Part shown: positions 56,420 through 63,132 of the stretch, piece after piece
How positions within the stretch are numbered: the first letter of the stretch is position 1
Layout of the letters: the number at the start of each line of letters is the position of its first letter
NCBI RefSeq assembly: GCF_003814835.1
Contig: NZ_RKRG01000004.1
Span: 1 to 64,000, forward strand
DNA: 64,000 nt
Source of the DNA: Methanobrevibacter gottschalkii DSM 11977
GTDB taxonomy: Archaea; Methanobacteriota; Methanobacteria; Methanobacteriales; Methanobacteriaceae
Direction of reading: 5' to 3'
Made by a program: the position numbers and the translations under genes
The notes under the pieces: model-generated
Seen by the model: only the letters and a program-made list of their open reading frames with translations
The model's database searches: none
What the model was told of the DNA's origin: nothing

Positions 56420-56749
56420 ATGGAACGAGCAGTCTGGATAATTTTAAACAATAATTTTTCACTTACATTAGACAGTGAAATAAAAGATGAAAAAATAGTA
56501 AATAAAAGATTCTCACCGGGAAGTGATTTATGGACATCAGAACTCCCGCAATTAAGTTTTAGTGACGAAAATATTCAAAAGGATTATGATGAATTTATAT
56601 CTGATATCATCTCATTATTCTCTGAACCAAGTGTTGATAAAATATTTATTGATGCAAAGATTGGTGAAGAATCCGAATATGTGAATGCTAAAAATCCATT
56701 AGTTATAAGAAAAATAGAAGAATATAGTGTGGATGAAATTATAGGATAG
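56420..56749 (+). CDS. Hypothetical cytosolic protein
   Basis: 109 residues: MERAVWIILNNNFSLTLDSE, then an acidic, helical central part (NIQKDYDEFISDIISLFSEP) and PLVIRKIEEYSVDEIIG. No signal, membrane helix or motif. Its codon and residue use look like a real gene, and it is convergent with the next gene (11-base overlap). Not recognised. Confidence 0.6.
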   Translation: MERAVWIILNNNFSLTLDSEIKDEKIVNKRFSPGSDLWTSELPQLSFSDENIQKDYDEFISDIISLFSEPSVDKIFIDAKIGEESEYVNAKNPLVIRKIEEYSVDEIIG

Positions 56750-57077
56750 CTGTAGCTTTTTTTAATATTTCATCCATGCTGCTGAATTCCAAAGGATTAC
56801 CTTCATCATCTAGACTCTCAGTAGTGATTAATACATTTGGAGAAGCCCATAAATATGAATAAGTAAAATAAATAACATTTACTATTAAAACTGGCCAAAC
56901 ATATGAAAGAGCAATTATTAAACAGATTGCATGGATTAAAATATTCCCATACCTTTTTTTACACATTAAAATATAATTGTTCTCAGTTTGAGTAATTTTG
57001 AATTTTTTTAAAGATAATTTTTGAGATATGTCATCCATATCTCTTGAATCGTTAGCAGACAATATAAAAAGTTTCAT
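56739..57077 (-). CDS. Membrane protein with flanking cytoplasmic parts
   Basis: 112 residues: an N-terminal alpha/beta segment (MKLFILSANDSRDMDDISQK), a hydrophobic region with two helices (ILIHAICLIIALSYVWPVLI and VNVIYFTYSYLWASP), and a short acidic C-terminal part. Its start lies one base after the nitroreductase stop, so it belongs to that transcript. Not recognised. Confidence 0.6.
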   Translation of the reverse strand: MKLFILSANDSRDMDDISQKLSLKKFKITQTENNYILMCKKRYGNILIHAICLIIALSYVWPVLIVNVIYFTYSYLWASPNVLITTESLDDEGNPLEFSSMDEILKKATAIL

Positions 57078-57078
57078 T

Positions 57079-57588
57079 TTAATCTTTGTATACTACAAAA
57101 TCATTTAAATCCTTTCTTGGAGTCTCACGAGGTTCAACATTACCATACCCAAGAGGAGTGAATAGCACTACTTCTTCATTTTCATTTAATCCCAAGAATT
57201 TGTGTGCATAATTTTTCTTAAATGCACCGACATAGCATGTTCCAAGCCCTACGTCAGTAGCTGCAAGAATCATGTGGTCCATTACAATAGTGGCATCAAT
57301 ATCTGCAATGTTTTTAGAATCCCATGGTCTTACCCATGCTTCATTTCTTAATGCAACAACGGCCAATACATATGGCGCTTCAACAAACCATTTAGCTTTA
57401 TAAATTTTAGATAATTTCTCTTTATATTTTTTAGAATCAATGACATAGACTTTAAAAGGTTGGTTGTTGACTCCTGTCGGAGCTATTGTTGCTGCTTTTA
57501 ATACAAATTCTAGTTTTTCTTGTTCTACTTCTTTGTCTAAGTATCCTCTGACACTGTATCTTTCATTTATCACATCTATAAATTCCAT
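57079..57588 (-). CDS. Nitroreductase-family protein
   Basis: 169 residues, single-domain nitroreductase: FIDVINERYSVRGYLDKEVE at the start (R-Y-S-V-R-x-Y), ATIAPTGVNNQPFKVYVID for FMN binding, and MILAATDVGLGTCYVGAFKK near residue 115. Members use FMN and NAD(P)H; the substrate is unknown. It starts one base after the citrate synthase-like gene and is thus tied to the organic-acid operon. Confidence 0.85.
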   Translation of the reverse strand: MEFIDVINERYSVRGYLDKEVEQEKLEFVLKAATIAPTGVNNQPFKVYVIDSKKYKEKLSKIYKAKWFVEAPYVLAVVALRNEAWVRPWDSKNIADIDATIVMDHMILAATDVGLGTCYVGAFKKNYAHKFLGLNENEEVVLFTPLGYGNVEPRETPRKDLNDFVVYKD

Positions 57589-57589
57589 G

Positions 57590-58393
57590 TTATTTACCTC
57601 TTTGTTGGTATATTACGTCATCAAGATCGCAAAATCTTCTAAATTCATCTTCATTCATTTTTTCTTCATGAATGTGTGCAATAATTCCTGGAATTCTACC
57701 AATTATAAATATTCCTAATCCCAAATCTGGAGTGAAACCTAAATCTGATAAAATAGCCGCATTTGCACCGTCCACATTAAGACGAATTTGCTTTTTTTGG
57801 TAAATTAGATCTTCAAGAGCTAATGCTAACTTTATATGAGGTCCAATAAAACCTTCTTTAATGACAATTTCCATTAATTTATCTGCTCTTGGATCAATAT
57901 TATGATACCTATGACCAAAACCAGGTACTTTTTTATCTTTAAGTATATATTCTTGATAAATTTCAATAGCTAAACCAGCAATTTGTTTGTTATCAATTTC
58001 AGCATCATCAGTTAAGTACAATGAATTGATTTTTGATTGATATAAATCCATTGTTTTTTCAATAGCACCGGCATGCTTATGTCCAAAAGACAATAATGCA
58101 CCGGCAACTGCTGAGTTGACTGGCGAACCTGAAGAGGTAACGATACGCGCTGTTTGAGTACTTGGTGGAGTCACACCATGATCACAAAATGAAACAAGAA
58201 CATGATTAAATATTTTTCCTTCAATAATGGAAGGCAATCTTCCTTTTAAAAGTAAAAAAACCATATCACTGTATCTTATTTTTTCAATTAAATCTCTTTG
58301 ATTATACCCTCTTGTTACGATTTTATCAGTTTCAACACGTGAAATCGCTGTTTTTAAAGAATGCCTATCAATTTTAAAATTATTTTCCTGCAT
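57590..58393 (-). CDS. Citrate synthase family protein, probably citryl-CoA lyase type
   Basis: 267 residues, shorter than typical citrate synthases (about 370-430) and close to the citryl-CoA lyase-like group. Catalytic elements are visible: LVSFCDHGVTPPSTQTARIV, ALLSFGHKHAGAIEKT with His, VPGFGHRYHNIDPRADKL (G-F-G-H and Arg) and LNVDGANAAILSDLGF. It should catalyse an aldol cleavage or condensation between an acyl-CoA and a 2-oxo acid. It lies 53 bases after the fumarase-like gene in the same direction. Confidence 0.8.
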   Translation of the reverse strand: MQENNFKIDRHSLKTAISRVETDKIVTRGYNQRDLIEKIRYSDMVFLLLKGRLPSIIEGKIFNHVLVSFCDHGVTPPSTQTARIVTSSGSPVNSAVAGALLSFGHKHAGAIEKTMDLYQSKINSLYLTDDAEIDNKQIAGLAIEIYQEYILKDKKVPGFGHRYHNIDPRADKLMEIVIKEGFIGPHIKLALALEDLIYQKKQIRLNVDGANAAILSDLGFTPDLGLGIFIIGRIPGIIAHIHEEKMNEDEFRRFCDLDDVIYQQRGK

Positions 58394-58446
58394 TTTAAGC
58401 TACCTATTTTATCAATTATATTAAGTTATTAAATAATATATAAACA

Positions 58447-59319
58447 TTACAATTTTAATGTTGCTACTCTTGGCTCAACAAAACAAGACGGCCTAACAGA
58501 CACTATTCTAACACCACTTGCTCTCTGATTTCCAATATTTAGATAAGTACCCAAAACCGTGGTTTTTCCGCCAAACCCCATAGGCCCAATACAAGTTTCA
58601 TTTAATCTTTGAGTTATTTTTTGTTCATGTTCACTTTGATTATCTAAATTCCCATAAGCAATGGATTTTAAAAGAAGAGAAGTTGATTCAAAATGTGTTC
58701 TACCGATACCAATTGATGGGATTGATGGAGTGCAACCCAACATTCTTAGAGATTCTTCAAGCCAGCCACATGCGGTATTAATTACATTGTCAAAAGATCT
58801 TTTATGATACACCCTAAATGTGTTAGCTCTAATTTCTGGACCCCCGCCTTCAAGTAAAAAATGAATATTTAACGTATCAGAAGATATGTCCCTTTTATAT
58901 GTTGATTCATCATTTGCCGTGTCTATTAATATAGATACTGGGCGAAGCATTCCAGGTTTTTCAAATAAACCTTTACTTTGTTCAATTCTTTGAACTTCAT
59001 CTCCAATTACAGCCATTGGTCTTGCTGGAAGATTATTTAAACCTAACTCTATTCCCTTATGAATCTGATTGAGCAGATCTCCTGAAATTTCTCTATCTTC
59101 ACCAATTTCAATAATTACATGAGGAATGCCCGTATCATCGCATAAAGGGAATTTAATATCTTGAGCTACCTTATAATTCTCTAAAATTTGTTCCAATGCC
59201 CATTTAGCATTTTCATTATCTTCTGCATCAATAGATCTTTTCAATGCATTGAATTTGTCTTGGGAAAGAGTTGTTGATGCATCAATGATTGTTTTTGAAA
59301 TATCCTCCAAAATATCCAT
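58447..59319 (-). CDS. Class I fumarate hydratase (alpha)-like protein
   Basis: About 290 residues of the fumarase/L-tartrate dehydratase alpha family. Three Cys for a [4Fe-4S] cluster are visible in PLCDDTGIPHVIIEIGED, LGCTPSIPSIGIGRTHFES and NETCIGPMGFGGKTTVLG. The beta subunit gene is not in the window. The ATG at 59319 starts 4 bases after the U32-like stop; the longer frame to 59346 runs into that gene. The GGG-PEIRA segment (HFLLEGGGPEIRANTFR) departs from fumarase GGGSEN, suggesting a substrate other than fumarate. Confidence 0.8.
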   Translation of the reverse strand: MDILEDISKTIIDASTTLSQDKFNALKRSIDAEDNENAKWALEQILENYKVAQDIKFPLCDDTGIPHVIIEIGEDREISGDLLNQIHKGIELGLNNLPARPMAVIGDEVQRIEQSKGLFEKPGMLRPVSILIDTANDESTYKRDISSDTLNIHFLLEGGGPEIRANTFRVYHKRSFDNVINTACGWLEESLRMLGCTPSIPSIGIGRTHFESTSLLLKSIAYGNLDNQSEHEQKITQRLNETCIGPMGFGGKTTVLGTYLNIGNQRASGVRIVSVRPSCFVEPRVATLKL

Positions 59320-59323
59320 ATAA

Positions 59324-60226
59324 TCACTCTGGAATAGACAAATCACTAGATTTCACAGGAGATACTATTGCATCCGGATAATATTCATCAATAATCCTTT
59401 TTACAAGTGAAACTTGTTTTATACGAGCTAATGCTTCTTTTTCCGTTGTATCCCAGTTATGATTTGCTGCAACCGAACCACCAGTTTTTAAATAAACAGG
59501 AGATGCAACTTTAATAAATTTTGGAACTTCATAATGCCTAATAAACCCTCCAGTTGATTTTGGATTTTCAGTATGCAGATCAATTGCCATACTACAGGCA
59601 TATCTAATAGCTGCAAGCATTGAAATTTGCAAGTCTCTTACAGGATTAAGTGAATTTAACCCTTGAGCTTCAAGCAGTTTAGCAGAAGCAGGATTTGAAT
59701 GACCTGCATGAGCAGATAATTTAAAATGAACATTTTCTGGAATTTCACCTTCTGCCCTCATTTGATTTAATGCCCAAAGCAGTCCCTCATCATACAGCAA
59801 TATTCCGCGAACACCTAATCTGCAAGCTCTTTTTACATCCTCAATTGCATAAACTAGGTTATCATAACCTCTAAGACGATATCCTATTCTGCTTCCCTCT
59901 TTAGTATGGACTGTTGCTGAGGTATCATAGGTTGCTCTTGGACCTACTGCCAAGAACAATTCACATCCGTAGTCAATGGCTAAATCAATCATCTTACCAA
60001 TCTCTTCATCAGTCAACATCATGATTCCTTTAGTTTGAGTTACCCTATGAATAAAAATGCCCTGTTTGATTGATTCGGTTAAAAGAGCCTCCATTGTTTT
60101 TGGGGATTGAATTCCAGGAACTTCAAAACGATATTGTCCCCCATCATCAAAACGCTTATCTGATTTAAAGTCATCGTAAACTTCCTTTATACCAATTTTT
60201 TTGAGGAATTTTTTTGTATTCTCCAT
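59324..60226 (-). CDS. TIM-barrel protein, peptidase U32-like
   Basis: 300 residues with alternating strands and helices of a barrel: MIDLAIDYGCELFLAVGPRA, VKRACRLGVRGILLYDEGLL, VHFKLSAHAGHSNPASAKLL, LNSLNPVRDLQISMLAAIRY. The 'S-A-H-A-G-H' and 'N-P-V-R-D-L' stretches recall U32-type proteins, but I see no four-Cys cluster, so it may be a distinct family. It is 5 bases from the PrpD gene and 4 from the fumarase-like gene. Enzymatic role unknown; by context a lyase, mutase or synthase of a hydroxy acid is possible. Confidence 0.45.
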   Translation of the reverse strand: MENTKKFLKKIGIKEVYDDFKSDKRFDDGGQYRFEVPGIQSPKTMEALLTESIKQGIFIHRVTQTKGIMMLTDEEIGKMIDLAIDYGCELFLAVGPRATYDTSATVHTKEGSRIGYRLRGYDNLVYAIEDVKRACRLGVRGILLYDEGLLWALNQMRAEGEIPENVHFKLSAHAGHSNPASAKLLEAQGLNSLNPVRDLQISMLAAIRYACSMAIDLHTENPKSTGGFIRHYEVPKFIKVASPVYLKTGGSVAANHNWDTTEKEALARIKQVSLVKRIIDEYYPDAIVSPVKSSDLSIPE

Positions 60227-60231
60227 ATTAT

Positions 60232-61638
60232 CTACCCTTTCAATTTACGAACAACATATTTCATATTATAATCTTCAAGAGAATCAATAACTGTTAGATT
60301 TTTAATATCATAATGAGGATTCAAACCTTTAAATTTATCAATTAATTCTCTTAATTGTAATGGATTTTCAAAATCACCTTTTGGAAGGAATGTGATATTT
60401 TGGAAAATTCCATTTCTGAAAACATCATCTAATTTAATAATGACATTTGAAGGTCTTTTAGAAGGATATAACTCATTTAACTTATCATCTGATAAGATAA
60501 TCATCCCATTTACAATGTTTTTAATAGCATTCACATCATCAACAGTAGAATAATTTTCTAAAAGACCAAATTCGATTAATTGATTAATTTTATCAACACT
60601 AACTTCACCGACAACAAGAGAAATAGCAACAGCATATGGAAGGCTTTGTTTTAATTCTTCCAAATTTTTAGGATGGAAATTGTTGTGTTCTGCTGCAATT
60701 TCATATGTTTTAACTGCAACATTTTGAATATGATTATATTCATCCCCAATACTTGCTTTAAGCTTTAATGCTGTATCTATTGAAGAATGCAAGTGTCTGC
60801 AGAATGGATATTTTTTAAAATAGATATCCCTAACCCTTACTTTTCCAATATTTTTGAGAGCATTTTCAAAAGAAAACTCATCAATATCATGATTTGTGTT
60901 ATCTAAAACCATTGTTTTTAAAAAACCTTCATCTCCATCAAATATAGTTCCACTACCAGTAAAACCATTTCTAGCAAGAAATGCTGATAAAATACCATTA
61001 TATGATGCTTTTCCAACATGCAATACTTTACCCATGGATCCCCCATGATCAGATTCTAAAAGACCAGCAGCCTGAGTTCCACATAACCCTAATGCATTTA
61101 AAGTCTGTTTTTCATCAAGTTTTAATAATTTAGAAGCAACTACCCCTGCAATGAATGTTCCTATTGTTCCAGTTGTATGAAATCCCTTATTTCTATGTTT
61201 TGGATTTACAAGTTGACCGAGTAAAATTCCAACTTCATAACCTACAATAACACCTTCCAAAAATTCCCTGCCGGTTAAGTCATAAGCTTCTGAAATTGCA
61301 AGAGCTGTTGAGAATATTACTGCACCCAAATGAAGTTGAGCCCCCCTATGACCATCATCCAATTCCAATACATGTGCCGCAATACCATTTACAAAAGCAG
61401 CACTTAAAATATCTGTTTTGAAATTTTGGCCAATGATGGATGCAGTAAGATTTGAATTCCTTTTTGGCAATATCTCTTCAATAGTATTTAATGCAATTGA
61501 GGGCGCTTCTTCACTCATTCCCCTATATGTTACTCCAAAAAAATCTAAAAAAGCAGCTTTTACAGTAGTCAGTGATTCCACCGTTGCCTGTTCATAACGA
61601 TAGTTCGATATAAATTTAGAAATATTTTGTAAAAACAT
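60232..61638 (-). CDS. MmgE/PrpD-family dehydratase
   Basis: 468 residues, the usual length of the family that includes 2-methylcitrate dehydratase and cis-aconitate decarboxylase. Features include AAFLDFFGVTYRGMSEEAPS, AAFVNGIAAHVLELDDGHRG (the conserved H-x-L-D-D), KHRNKGFHTTGTIGTFIAGV, and YPFCRHLHSSIDTALKL. It acts without a metal cluster to dehydrate or isomerise tri- or dicarboxylates. It is the first enzyme gene of the operon, behind an imperfect hairpin. Confidence 0.85.
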   Translation of the reverse strand: MFLQNISKFISNYRYEQATVESLTTVKAAFLDFFGVTYRGMSEEAPSIALNTIEEILPKRNSNLTASIIGQNFKTDILSAAFVNGIAAHVLELDDGHRGAQLHLGAVIFSTALAISEAYDLTGREFLEGVIVGYEVGILLGQLVNPKHRNKGFHTTGTIGTFIAGVVASKLLKLDEKQTLNALGLCGTQAAGLLESDHGGSMGKVLHVGKASYNGILSAFLARNGFTGSGTIFDGDEGFLKTMVLDNTNHDIDEFSFENALKNIGKVRVRDIYFKKYPFCRHLHSSIDTALKLKASIGDEYNHIQNVAVKTYEIAAEHNNFHPKNLEELKQSLPYAVAISLVVGEVSVDKINQLIEFGLLENYSTVDDVNAIKNIVNGMIILSDDKLNELYPSKRPSNVIIKLDDVFRNGIFQNITFLPKGDFENPLQLRELIDKFKGLNPHYDIKNLTVIDSLEDYNMKYVVRKLKG

Positions 61639-61681
61639 AAAACACCTATCATAAATATATGTAAAAAGTAGTATTAAAATA

Positions 61682-61718
61682 GGTAAGTTATGATTTTAAC
61701 ATGGAAAAATAGCTTACC
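61682..61718 (-). promoter_or_regulatory. Leader hairpin in front of the PrpD gene
   Basis: Stem of ten bases with one mismatch (GGTAAGCTAT / ATAACTTACC on the minus strand), 17-base loop, in the 108-base gap between the membrane gene and PrpD. It could attenuate, process or protect the enzyme part of the transcript. No T-run follows. Confidence 0.35.
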
Positions 61719-61746
61719 AATTTGGCATTCCATGACAAAAAAGAGT

Positions 61747-62235
61747 TCAGATTTGAACACCAGTCAACATCAATATAACTTGTGCCACCAATGCTAAACC
61801 CAGATATGTGGATGCAATAACAAGAATTGTAATAATAACTGCCTTTGGACCTAATGCTTTAAATTCATCCCAACTTTTACCCATACCAATACCCACATAT
61901 GCTAAAAATACTGTAACAATGGATATTAATTCAACTTGAGAAACATAGTAAAGTAAAGTCTTAGATGTGGGCATTCCAGGAAATGCAAGGACAATACCAA
62001 TTATACTGATATAAATAATTGAAGAAATATCCAATGGCAAATATCTCTCCATCCAAACACCAATAAGCGTAATTAATGATAATAAGAACATGCCAATTAA
62101 TGCATCGCCAATAGGATGTTTATAACCAATGTAATTTCCAACAACAGTAATGATTGAGAATATAGTTAAAAGCAAAACCCAGTTTAAAATACCATGAACT
62201 GATATATTTTCTGAACCATCAATAATATCAACCAT
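61747..62235 (-). CDS. Membrane protein, second half of DUF3100-like transporter pair
   Basis: 162 residues, five membrane helices (GILNWVLLLTIFSIITVVGN; DALIGMFLLSLITLIGVWM; IIYISIIGIVLAF; LISIVTVFLAYVGIGMG; KAVIITILVIASTYLGLALV). It abuts the preceding gene without a gap. The helix-rich pair resembles LrgA/LrgB- or DUF340-like two-gene transporters. Probably the smaller subunit of an organic-acid permease; the assignment rests on context. Confidence 0.6.
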   Translation of the reverse strand: MVDIIDGSENISVHGILNWVLLLTIFSIITVVGNYIGYKHPIGDALIGMFLLSLITLIGVWMERYLPLDISSIIYISIIGIVLAFPGMPTSKTLLYYVSQVELISIVTVFLAYVGIGMGKSWDEFKALGPKAVIITILVIASTYLGLALVAQVILMLTGVQI

Positions 62236-63132
62236 TTACCCCTCCTCCTCATCTACAATAGGGTCTCTTCCAATTTTAGGTTCTAAAATCCCATATAATT
62301 TTTCTGTTAAAGGAATTGCAACAAATATTACAATATAAATACCAACGGAAAAAGAGAGCAAATTACTGAATCCTGCAAATGCCTCAATTTGAGTTGCTAA
62401 TTGTGGAAATGCCGCAACAGTCGGAGCTAGTGAAGCAGCGTTCATACTTGCACTGCCTACACCACTGGCCATAGCGAATGCATATGGATGTAGCGGTATT
62501 ACTGAAACACAGATACTAGTTAAGAAACTAATGAATACTGTCCCAATAATTGTTCCAACAATAAAAAGTGCGAAAATACCTCTTGATTCCGGTGAATTAA
62601 AACCATATTTGTCAACAACAACTGCAACTTCAGGTTCACGACCAATAGATGAAGTCATACCAATAGCTTCCCGTTTAAATCCAAGCAATAATGCAATAGG
62701 AAGTGCAATTAAAATTGTAGCTAAATGCCCCAATTCCTGCAGCATTAAAGCCGGACCCATTTCAAAAATTAAATGAATAGATTGGCCACTAGAAACTGCT
62801 AATTTTGCAATTAAAACACCAATAAATAGCATCATTGCTCCTTCAGCAACTCTAGATTGCTTTCTTTGAATCCAAGTAATTGGTTTTGCTAAATAAAATA
62901 TTAAACCTAGAATCATTGTGTATAACAAAGGCATTATTGAAATTTCGACTCCTTTTGCTACAGGAATCTTCATTGGTCCAATAAGCTCTGCAATTACAAC
63001 CAAAATAAGTACACTAATGTGCAATCCATAGTCCTTCCATGGGTTCTTTTTTAAAATACGCCTATCAGTTTTATCACGATAAATATGCCTAATATCTTCC
63101 GTATCATTATTTCTCTTTGATATTATTGACAA
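62236..63132 (-). CDS. DUF3100-family membrane protein, putative organic-acid permease
   Basis: 298 residues: a charged N-terminal 35 residues, then about eight membrane helices (VLILVVIAELIGPMKIPVAK; LIALPIALLLGFKREAIGM; SPESRGIFALFIVGTIIGTV; VSVIPLHPYAFAMASGVGSA, SMNAASLAPTVAAFPQLATQ). The 'G-V-G-S-A-S-M-N-A' stretch suggests an LrgB-like substrate pore. It leads the gene cluster with the PrpD, fumarase-like and citryl-lyase-like enzymes, which supports a di- or tricarboxylate as substrate. The start follows a 198-base promoter region shared with nothing else on this strand. Confidence 0.65.
   Translation of the reverse strand: MSIISKRNNDTEDIRHIYRDKTDRRILKKNPWKDYGLHISVLILVVIAELIGPMKIPVAKGVEISIMPLLYTMILGLIFYLAKPITWIQRKQSRVAEGAMMLFIGVLIAKLAVSSGQSIHLIFEMGPALMLQELGHLATILIALPIALLLGFKREAIGMTSSIGREPEVAVVVDKYGFNSPESRGIFALFIVGTIIGTVFISFLTSICVSVIPLHPYAFAMASGVGSASMNAASLAPTVAAFPQLATQIEAFAGFSNLLSFSVGIYIVIFVAIPLTEKLYGILEPKIGRDPIVDEEEG

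Follow-up and report, generated by a model that had tools for sequence, protein, structure and literature searches.

A conserved polycarboxylate gene set of Methanobacteria, apparently not yet characterised, that may be linked to methanofuran

The first 64,000 nucleotides of contig NZ_RKRG01000004.1 of Methanobrevibacter gottschalkii DSM 11977, referred to here as the window, carry a row of six minus-strand genes between positions 57,590 and 63,132, which raises the question of which of them belong together and what they make. A preliminary description had taken all six for an uncharacterised organic-acid operon. Our analysis retained an organic-acid system in the form of a conserved four-gene polycarboxylate core, and placed the pair of DUF3100 genes at the head of the row outside it. 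The core and a remote fifth gene are predicted to encode a citryl-coenzyme A (CoA)-lyase-like enzyme (CCL), a PrpD-family enzyme, the alpha and beta2 subunits of a fumarase-type hydro-lyase and a U32-like barrel, a gene set conserved in Methanobacteria. This set is real, and as far as found it is uncharacterised: a literature search on DUF3100, tetracarboxyhexane/methanofuran, methylcitrate dehydratase and mfnA-fumarase found no paper on this pathway among the matches listed. The four core genes in the window are as follows.

60232..61638, minus strand: MmgE/PrpD-family enzyme, core gene 1, 468 amino acids (PF03972 223.5 bits and PF19305 78 bits, both over the cut-off)
59324..60226, minus strand: U32-like TIM barrel, core gene 2, 300 amino acids (below the cut-off of the Peptidase_U32 Pfam family; fold from a predicted model)
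58447..59319, minus strand: fumarase-alpha-like Fe-S hydro-lyase subunit, core gene 3, 290 amino acids from the ATG at 59319 (PF05681 163 bits; GGGPEIRA motif)
57590..58393, minus strand: citryl-CoA-lyase-like enzyme of the citrate synthase fold (CCL), core gene 4, 267 amino acids (PF00285 145.5 bits; NF004866 411 bits)

Inspection of the open reading frames (ORFs) of the window confirmed the six minus-strand genes, followed downstream of the CCL gene by genes for a nitroreductase and a small membrane protein one base apart. The ORF list starts the fumarase-like gene at GTG 59346, and alignment of relatives favours an internal methionine (ATG 59319); with the latter start, the gaps of 0, 108, 5, 4 and 53 bases given earlier are correct. 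Comparison of genome neighbourhoods, proposed earlier as a check, was positive for the last four of the six genes: the order PrpD-U32-FUM-CCL, where FUM is the fumarase-alpha-like gene, was kept on one strand in 18 of 20 loci (18 from 12 genera, 20 from 14 genera), with the unit often located between tiaS and A/V-type ATPase genes. The U32 gene was found in 128 of the 151 genomes of the class; the phylum-level query covered the same 151 genomes, and archaea outside the class entered as named controls in family searches. It was missed in three genomes of 67-72% completeness and throughout genus g12 (20 genomes, 17 of them listed and the other 3 deduced by elimination), and at genus level was missing only from this methanol-using genus (genome, contig, locus, genus and family numbers are our own handles). 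The best 80 of 367 U32 relatives were taken, so that the bacterial range is under-sampled; among them the best named relatives were Methanobrevibacter metagenome-assembled genomes (MAGs), at up to 86%, and 17 Clostridia MAGs had 65-67% U32 identity (species genomes).

The PrpD-like protein stayed far below two prpD equivalog models (TIGR02330, 29.7 versus 458; NF006943, 38.8 versus 575), and its nearest solved relatives were IDS-epimerase, B. subtilis IRG1 and cis-aconitate decarboxylase. Judging from its sequence, it is probably a cofactor-free dehydratase or hydratase of a citrate-type acid. The CCL protein exceeded the cut-off of the citryl-CoA lyase model NF004866 (245 bits), and its best solved relative was citryl-CoA lyase 6hxp (165 bits), to whose counterparts its GHKHAGA, GFGHRYH and NVDGAN segments aligned; we take these His/His/Asp motifs to hold the catalytic residues. 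It is also alike in length, and cleavage of citryl-CoA would mark a true member of that family; the core of Clostridia uses other carbon-carbon lyases.

The U32-like protein scored 13.6 bits against a cut-off of 22.4 for Peptidase_U32 and reached no family cut-off. Its predicted model is a confident TIM barrel (predicted local distance difference test score, pLDDT, 87.6); a fold search with this model returned generic TIM barrels, among them class II aldolases, the U32 chain 5d88, dihydrodipicolinate synthase, methylisocitrate lyase, RuBisCO-like proteins and CutC; none of these matches was discriminating. Solved structures searched by profile yielded a single row at an E value of 0.4 and nothing meaningful. 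No viral contig encoding a relative was found. In characterised U32 proteins, conserved cysteines are cluster ligands. Among 19 sequences of the present family, many Arg, His, Asp and Glu residues are invariant and no cysteine lies in an invariant or nearly invariant column. The likeness to peptidase family U32 thus consists of a weak sequence match, the TIM barrel and the presence of 5d88 among the fold matches, whereas the score below the Pfam cut-off and the lack of conserved cysteines set it apart. We infer an aldolase or lyase of a 2-oxo acid.

For the fumarase-like protein, the preliminary description had noted the absence of a beta subunit. Locally this is true, but the search for a separate beta gene, also proposed there, was positive: the genome contains a second, divergent beta, beta2 (C1:66607-67095), in addition to an ordinary fumarase alpha (C1:712547-713347) and an ordinary beta (C2:193416-193925), giving two PF05681 alpha and two PF05683 beta genes. 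An alpha-only fumarase was therefore rejected. As counter-evidence to an unusual enzyme, the preliminary description had named a remote beta subunit pairing with this alpha as ordinary fumarase; the beta is indeed remote, but neither subunit appears to resemble its ordinary fumarase counterpart. The window alpha scored 114 against 276 bits with the curated fumarase model NF004885, and just passed the wider subfamily model TIGR00722 (103.3 versus 100.65). In archaea and Clostridia alike, GGGP(E/A)IR replaces the fumarase KGxGSEN in alpha, and PT(T/S)S(S/N)K replaces PTTSxRM in beta2; GGGPEIR(A/G/S) was present in all 18 archaeal alphas scanned, and the alpha has a C-terminal RASGVR...EPR segment. 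Scans and trees used 14 of the 17 Clostridial loci (without L153, L164 and L165, which are cut short) and 8 of 10 loci of a spread sample (without L190 and L195); L037 was left out of the alpha set for its misextended start (325 amino acids). The archaeal and Clostridial special alphas grouped apart from the four ordinary alphas included as reference (100/100), and the beta2 proteins of both groups apart from five ordinary betas (100/99). Separate clades and altered motifs in both subunits argue that the putative alpha-beta2 hydro-lyase is a distinct subfamily and not ordinary fumarase, probably with one shared chemistry. The two-subunit class I [4Fe-4S] fumarases, L-tartrate dehydratases and mesaconases share with it the PF05681 and PF05683 families and three conserved cysteines (C69, C205 and C288 in 299-residue numbering, invariant in 16 alphas including an ordinary fumarase alpha, and presumably the cluster ligands); they differ in the changed motifs and in the split from the few ordinary rows used.

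Across the 151 genomes, beta2 co-occurs with the special alpha. Beta2 (E<=1e-40) was lacking throughout g12 (20 genomes) and in ten further genomes; nine of the ten are 62-90% complete, and the tenth, G039, has a fragment of the gene where a contig ends. The special alpha, at E<1e-60, was lacking in the same 20 genomes of g12 and in G009, G016, G025, G032, G035, G108 and G136. The cluster of genome G010 (locus L044) is split, with the special alpha gene on a different contig, C285. A search of plasmids with the special alpha gave 32 records, of which the 15 listed had 23-29% identity, with no close relative among the matches listed. In Clostridia, the homologues of beta2 and alpha are adjacent in one cluster.

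The position of beta2 in other genera offers a clue to the pathway. In 9 of 14 loci, corresponding to 8 of the 10 genera examined, it shares its strand with mfnA, the gene that opens methanofuran synthesis; in eight of these loci the two overlap or are within about 510 bases, with overlap or near contact in G001 and G003, and in L088 one ORF lies between them. MfnA was supported by TIGR03812 in the 4 loci checked (550-572 bits, cut-off 299). The adjacency in 8 of 10 genera is the likeness of this system to methanofuran biosynthesis (MfnA-F), from which it differs in that the core genes are not described as mfn genes among the matches listed, in the parts of that literature available to us. PrpD was found in 11 of 11 genomes outside g12 and in none of nine g12 genomes, mfnA in 20 of 20 genomes tested, and MtaB (methanol methyltransferase) in 9 of 9 g12 genomes; because of the last result we take g12 to be Methanosphaera. 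White's papers reportedly give 1,3,4,6-hexanetetracarboxylic acid (HTCA) as the terminal arm of methanofuran in Methanobacteria, with a hydroxy form in Methanobrevibacter smithii, and polyglutamate or other arms in Methanococcales and Methanosarcina. We assume that the methanofurans of Methanocaldococcus jannaschii and Methanosarcina acetivorans are without HTCA, and the PrpD family search reported none for these two control genomes. To our knowledge, the tetracarboxylic arm has been an open gap since the 1980s. The distribution within Methanobacteria would fit a restriction to organisms with HTCA-methanofuran, but Clostridia carry the core as well. One study describes how genes for CO2-reducing methanogenesis, one for an Fwd subunit among them, were lost in the ancestor of Methanosphaera (PMC9598358). 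Another names 1,3,4,6-tetracarboxyhexane as a component of methanofuran and as one of the major solutes of Methanothermobacter Marburg (PMC1224877), and an inventory of 2011 has an estimated 7 unknown methanofuran proteins (PMC3087415).

From gene order, co-occurrence and the Clostridial clusters we infer that the five proteins (CCL, PrpD, alpha, beta2 and U32) act in one pathway. As our leading reading, held tentatively and at less than even odds, we propose that this pathway is anabolic and that the core and beta2 supply HTCA, the polycarboxylic arm of methanofuran. In such a route, the bond made by CCL would connect the alpha carbon of a dicarboxyl acyl-CoA with the keto carbon of 2-oxoglutarate. 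The citrate-like product would be dehydrated and rehydrated by PrpD and the alpha-beta2 hydro-lyase, and U32 would form or use one more carbon-carbon bond, this one to a precursor that is a 2-oxo acid or an aldehyde. The route would also require a reductase from a gene outside the core. Retention of the core in the small genome G001, where DUF3100 gave no match, and the adjacent, jointly diverged alpha and beta2 of Clostridia also count in favour of this reading. The HTCA reading accounts for the distribution and the mfnA link, and does not account for U32, the alpha-beta2 step or Clostridia.

Several observations weigh against it. A plain HTCA route requires a CCL-type step, a PrpD-type step and a reductase, and makes no clear use of U32 and alpha-beta2. 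The core is common to gut Clostridia, which have other carbon-carbon lyases (PF15617 or citrate-lyase genes), where it stands beside glycan-type, TRAP or tricarboxylate-transporter genes; as far as we know, Clostridia make no methanofuran. Beta2 is not beside mfnA in genera g6 and g1, the latter being that of the window, Methanobrevibacter; in the window's own genome beta2 lies beside genes named from sequence as kor-like (2-oxoglutarate:ferredoxin oxidoreductase), with mfnA about 61 kb away. The adjacency of mfnA and beta2 may also be one ancestral arrangement that was simply retained. G046 and G018 have both MtaB and the core, so that methanol use alone is not tied to the loss, and G009, at 95% completeness, has U32 and beta2 with no match for the special alpha at E<1e-60. 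Two loci break the core order, L054 with PrpD and U32 at a contig end and L044 with U32 alone.

The bacterial relatives suggest another answer. In 12 of 14 Clostridial loci, the genes of the cluster follow one another in the order PrpD, an aldo-keto reductase, a phosphonopyruvate-decarboxylase-like enzyme, U32, a PF15617 carbon-carbon lyase, beta2 and alpha; the remaining two begin inside the cluster, at a contig end. In locus L146, the thiamine diphosphate (ThDP) decarboxylase scored 403 against 312.5 bits with TIGR03297, and the lyase 376 bits with PF15617; no CCL match was found in these Clostridial stretches. Despite the phosphonopyruvate decarboxylase match, a phosphonate pathway was rejected: phosphoenolpyruvate (PEP) mutase was over the cut-off in only 1 of 10 Clostridial genomes, with a match at E<=0.001 in 3 of the 10. 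Several of the clusters adjoin genes that we recognised from sequence as of glycan-assembly type, and ATP-grasp was found in both neighbours scanned. In a spread sample of the Clostridia class, U32 occurred in 11 of 391 genomes. Citrate-lyase genes (CitF 600 versus 501 bits, CitD 102 versus 63.5, and CitE below its cut-off with 307 versus 443) and a GlcD-like gene lie beside the U32 relatives of L191 and L192; L187 combines TctC and TctA with malic-enzyme-like, ordinary-type fumarase, PrpD and Ldh_2 genes and has its U32, PrpD, fumarase and malic-enzyme-like genes in common with L188 and L189; and a D-2-hydroxyacid dehydrogenase occurs in the U32 context of L193. Distant U32 relatives (30-40%) were found on four bacterial replicons, one of them in Thermomicrobium roseum, where the 40% relative lies beside an enolase-superfamily enzyme and sugar ABC genes, a context that suggests aldolase-type activity. 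Two further loci were noted. In the Clostridia-class locus L190 (L190:6973-8843), a 35% U32 relative directly follows a PanB-like gene, with folate-type one-carbon and TRAP-type transporter genes nearby, all named from sequence. On an Enterobacter chuandaensis plasmid (L186:9914-20798), a 30% U32-like gene lies in an apparent biosynthetic cluster with two iron-containing redox enzymes, an aminotransferase, an M14 peptidase and an MFS transporter.

These bacterial contexts fit the interconversion of citrate-type and isocitrate-type acids ending in a 2-oxo acid, and they are the main evidence for a rival reading that we regard as a serious, though doubtful, possibility: a methylcitrate-cycle-like shuttle whose enzymes are largely unlike those of the known cycle. 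Here CCL (or the PF15617 lyase or citrate lyase) would form a citrate-type acid from a 2-oxo acid and an acyl-CoA or acetate, or split it into these. PrpD and alpha-beta2 would shift the hydroxyl via an aconitate-type acid, and U32 would cleave the isocitrate-type acid to a dicarboxylate plus a 2-oxo acid, or catalyse the reverse condensation; the substrate is perhaps propionyl-, acetyl- or glutaryl-CoA. The 2-methylcitrate cycle consists of PrpC, PrpD, AcnB/AcnD and PrpB. The two systems are alike in four analogous steps and in PrpD-family and citrate-synthase-fold members; they differ in that the core has a short CCL-type enzyme for PrpC, the class-I-fumarase-type alpha-beta2 for aconitase and the U32-like barrel for PrpB, and in that its PrpD stays below the prpD equivalog cut-offs. 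The four enzyme types match the four chemical steps of the shuttle, three different carbon-carbon lyases substitute for each other around the same core, the genes for 2-oxo and 2-hydroxy acids recur beside it (the TIGR03297 ThDP decarboxylase, D-2-hydroxyacid dehydrogenase, GlcD-like and Ldh_2), and the gene context in T. roseum points to an aldolase. Set against this are the generic fold matches of U32 and the fact that we know of no report of lyase activity for any U32-like protein. The methylcitrate-like reading thus explains the enzyme set and Clostridia, and leaves unexplained the link of beta2 to mfnA and what need a strict autotroph would have of such a shuttle.

A broader proposal, which we consider unlikely, is a single cross-domain pathway for a new class of polycarboxylic acids. 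Methanobacteria would put HTCA or hydroxy-HTCA on methanofuran, and gut Clostridia would put the product of the same core on surface glycans through ATP-grasp ligases, with the U32-like barrel as a new 2-oxo-acid aldolase, a re-tooled fumarase and three interchangeable carbon-carbon lyases.

The preliminary description had instead placed the two genes upstream of the core within the system.

62236..63132, minus strand: N-terminal half of DUF3100, membrane protein (PF11299 289 bits, cut-off 27); neighbour, not core
61747..62235, minus strand: C-terminal half of DUF3100, membrane protein (hydrophobic segments; in L039 and L043 one protein with the N half); neighbour, not core

In its view, a tri- or dicarboxylate was imported via DUF3100 and degraded to an acyl-CoA and a 2-oxo acid, a reading that we now consider quite unlikely. 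In its favour, DUF3100 is directly upstream in the window and near the core in 6 of 20 loci, and TRAP or TctA/TctC genes are neighbours of some of the relatives in Clostridia. Against it, DUF3100 and the core occur apart in both directions, for which DUF3100 was rejected as a pathway member. It was present in 65 of 95 genomes of at least 90% completeness, but in only 4 of 18 genera (g1, g6, g9 and g12), and U32 is present in the 14 genera where it was not found; conversely, all 13 g12 genomes of at least 90% completeness have DUF3100 and none has U32. In 4 of 7 g12 loci (L197, L198, L201 and L202), DUF3100 genes are on the same strand as thiM-/thiE-like genes, with one large ORF between them in L198; family scores backed these names in L202, the only locus in which they were checked. 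Its occurrence in few genera and in all of these g12 genomes without the core, and its proximity to thiM/thiE, mark the transporter-like pair as a neighbour and not as core. It may be a thiamine-precursor transporter, but no thiM/thiE was found in the stretch around DUF3100 in the other three g12 loci (L199, L200 and L206), which counts against this link. The proposal of a gut-specific substrate fared no better: G001, a genome of just 1.24 Mb, and genera g18-g19 all retain the core, with no DUF3100 match found in any of them.

As to the pair itself, single ORFs of about 420-476 amino acids span both halves in L039, L043, L204 and L205, and from the sequences the pair looks like one split protein; the predicted model of the N half was poor (pLDDT 50.7). 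Two tandem DUF3100-N genes precede the core in L048, L095, L113, L109 and other Methanobrevibacter loci; L048 shows both C halves, and further Methanobrevibacter loci have one DUF3100-N or none. In L202 (8393-9961), thiE is fused to an ADP-ribosylglycohydrolase domain (PF02581 and PF03747) in one frame of 523 amino acids.

The near-universal presence of the core in the class without a fixed transporter, and the position of beta2 beside kor-like genes in Methanobrevibacter, would also be consistent with metabolite repair or housekeeping, in which a side product of coenzyme B or glutamate synthesis (e.g. trans- or methyl-branched aconitate) is removed. We consider this very improbable, as four steps are many for repair and g12 lacks the core though it, too, requires coenzyme B.

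Two further genes complete the row in the window.

57079..57588, minus strand: nitroreductase-family protein (PF00881 92 bits)
56739..57077, minus strand: small membrane protein in the nitroreductase's neighbourhood (one hydrophobic segment; no family in a Pfam scan)

The nitroreductase is near the core in 10 of 20 loci, all of family f1; core loci sampled from other families did not show it. It is possibly an ene-reductase, though not part of the core.

If the HTCA reading is true, the core and beta2 would be candidate genes, the first met in the literature searched, for how gut and rumen methanogens make the tetracarboxylic arm of their methanofuran, and might serve as a target for blocking methane formation. 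If the methylcitrate-like shuttle is true, they would represent a four-step polycarboxylate pathway common to archaea and bacteria, with a new role for a U32-like barrel and a new hydratase subfamily. Either way, caution is advised against transferring the names 'fumarate hydratase', 'U32 peptidase' and '2-methylcitrate dehydratase' across this class of methanogens.

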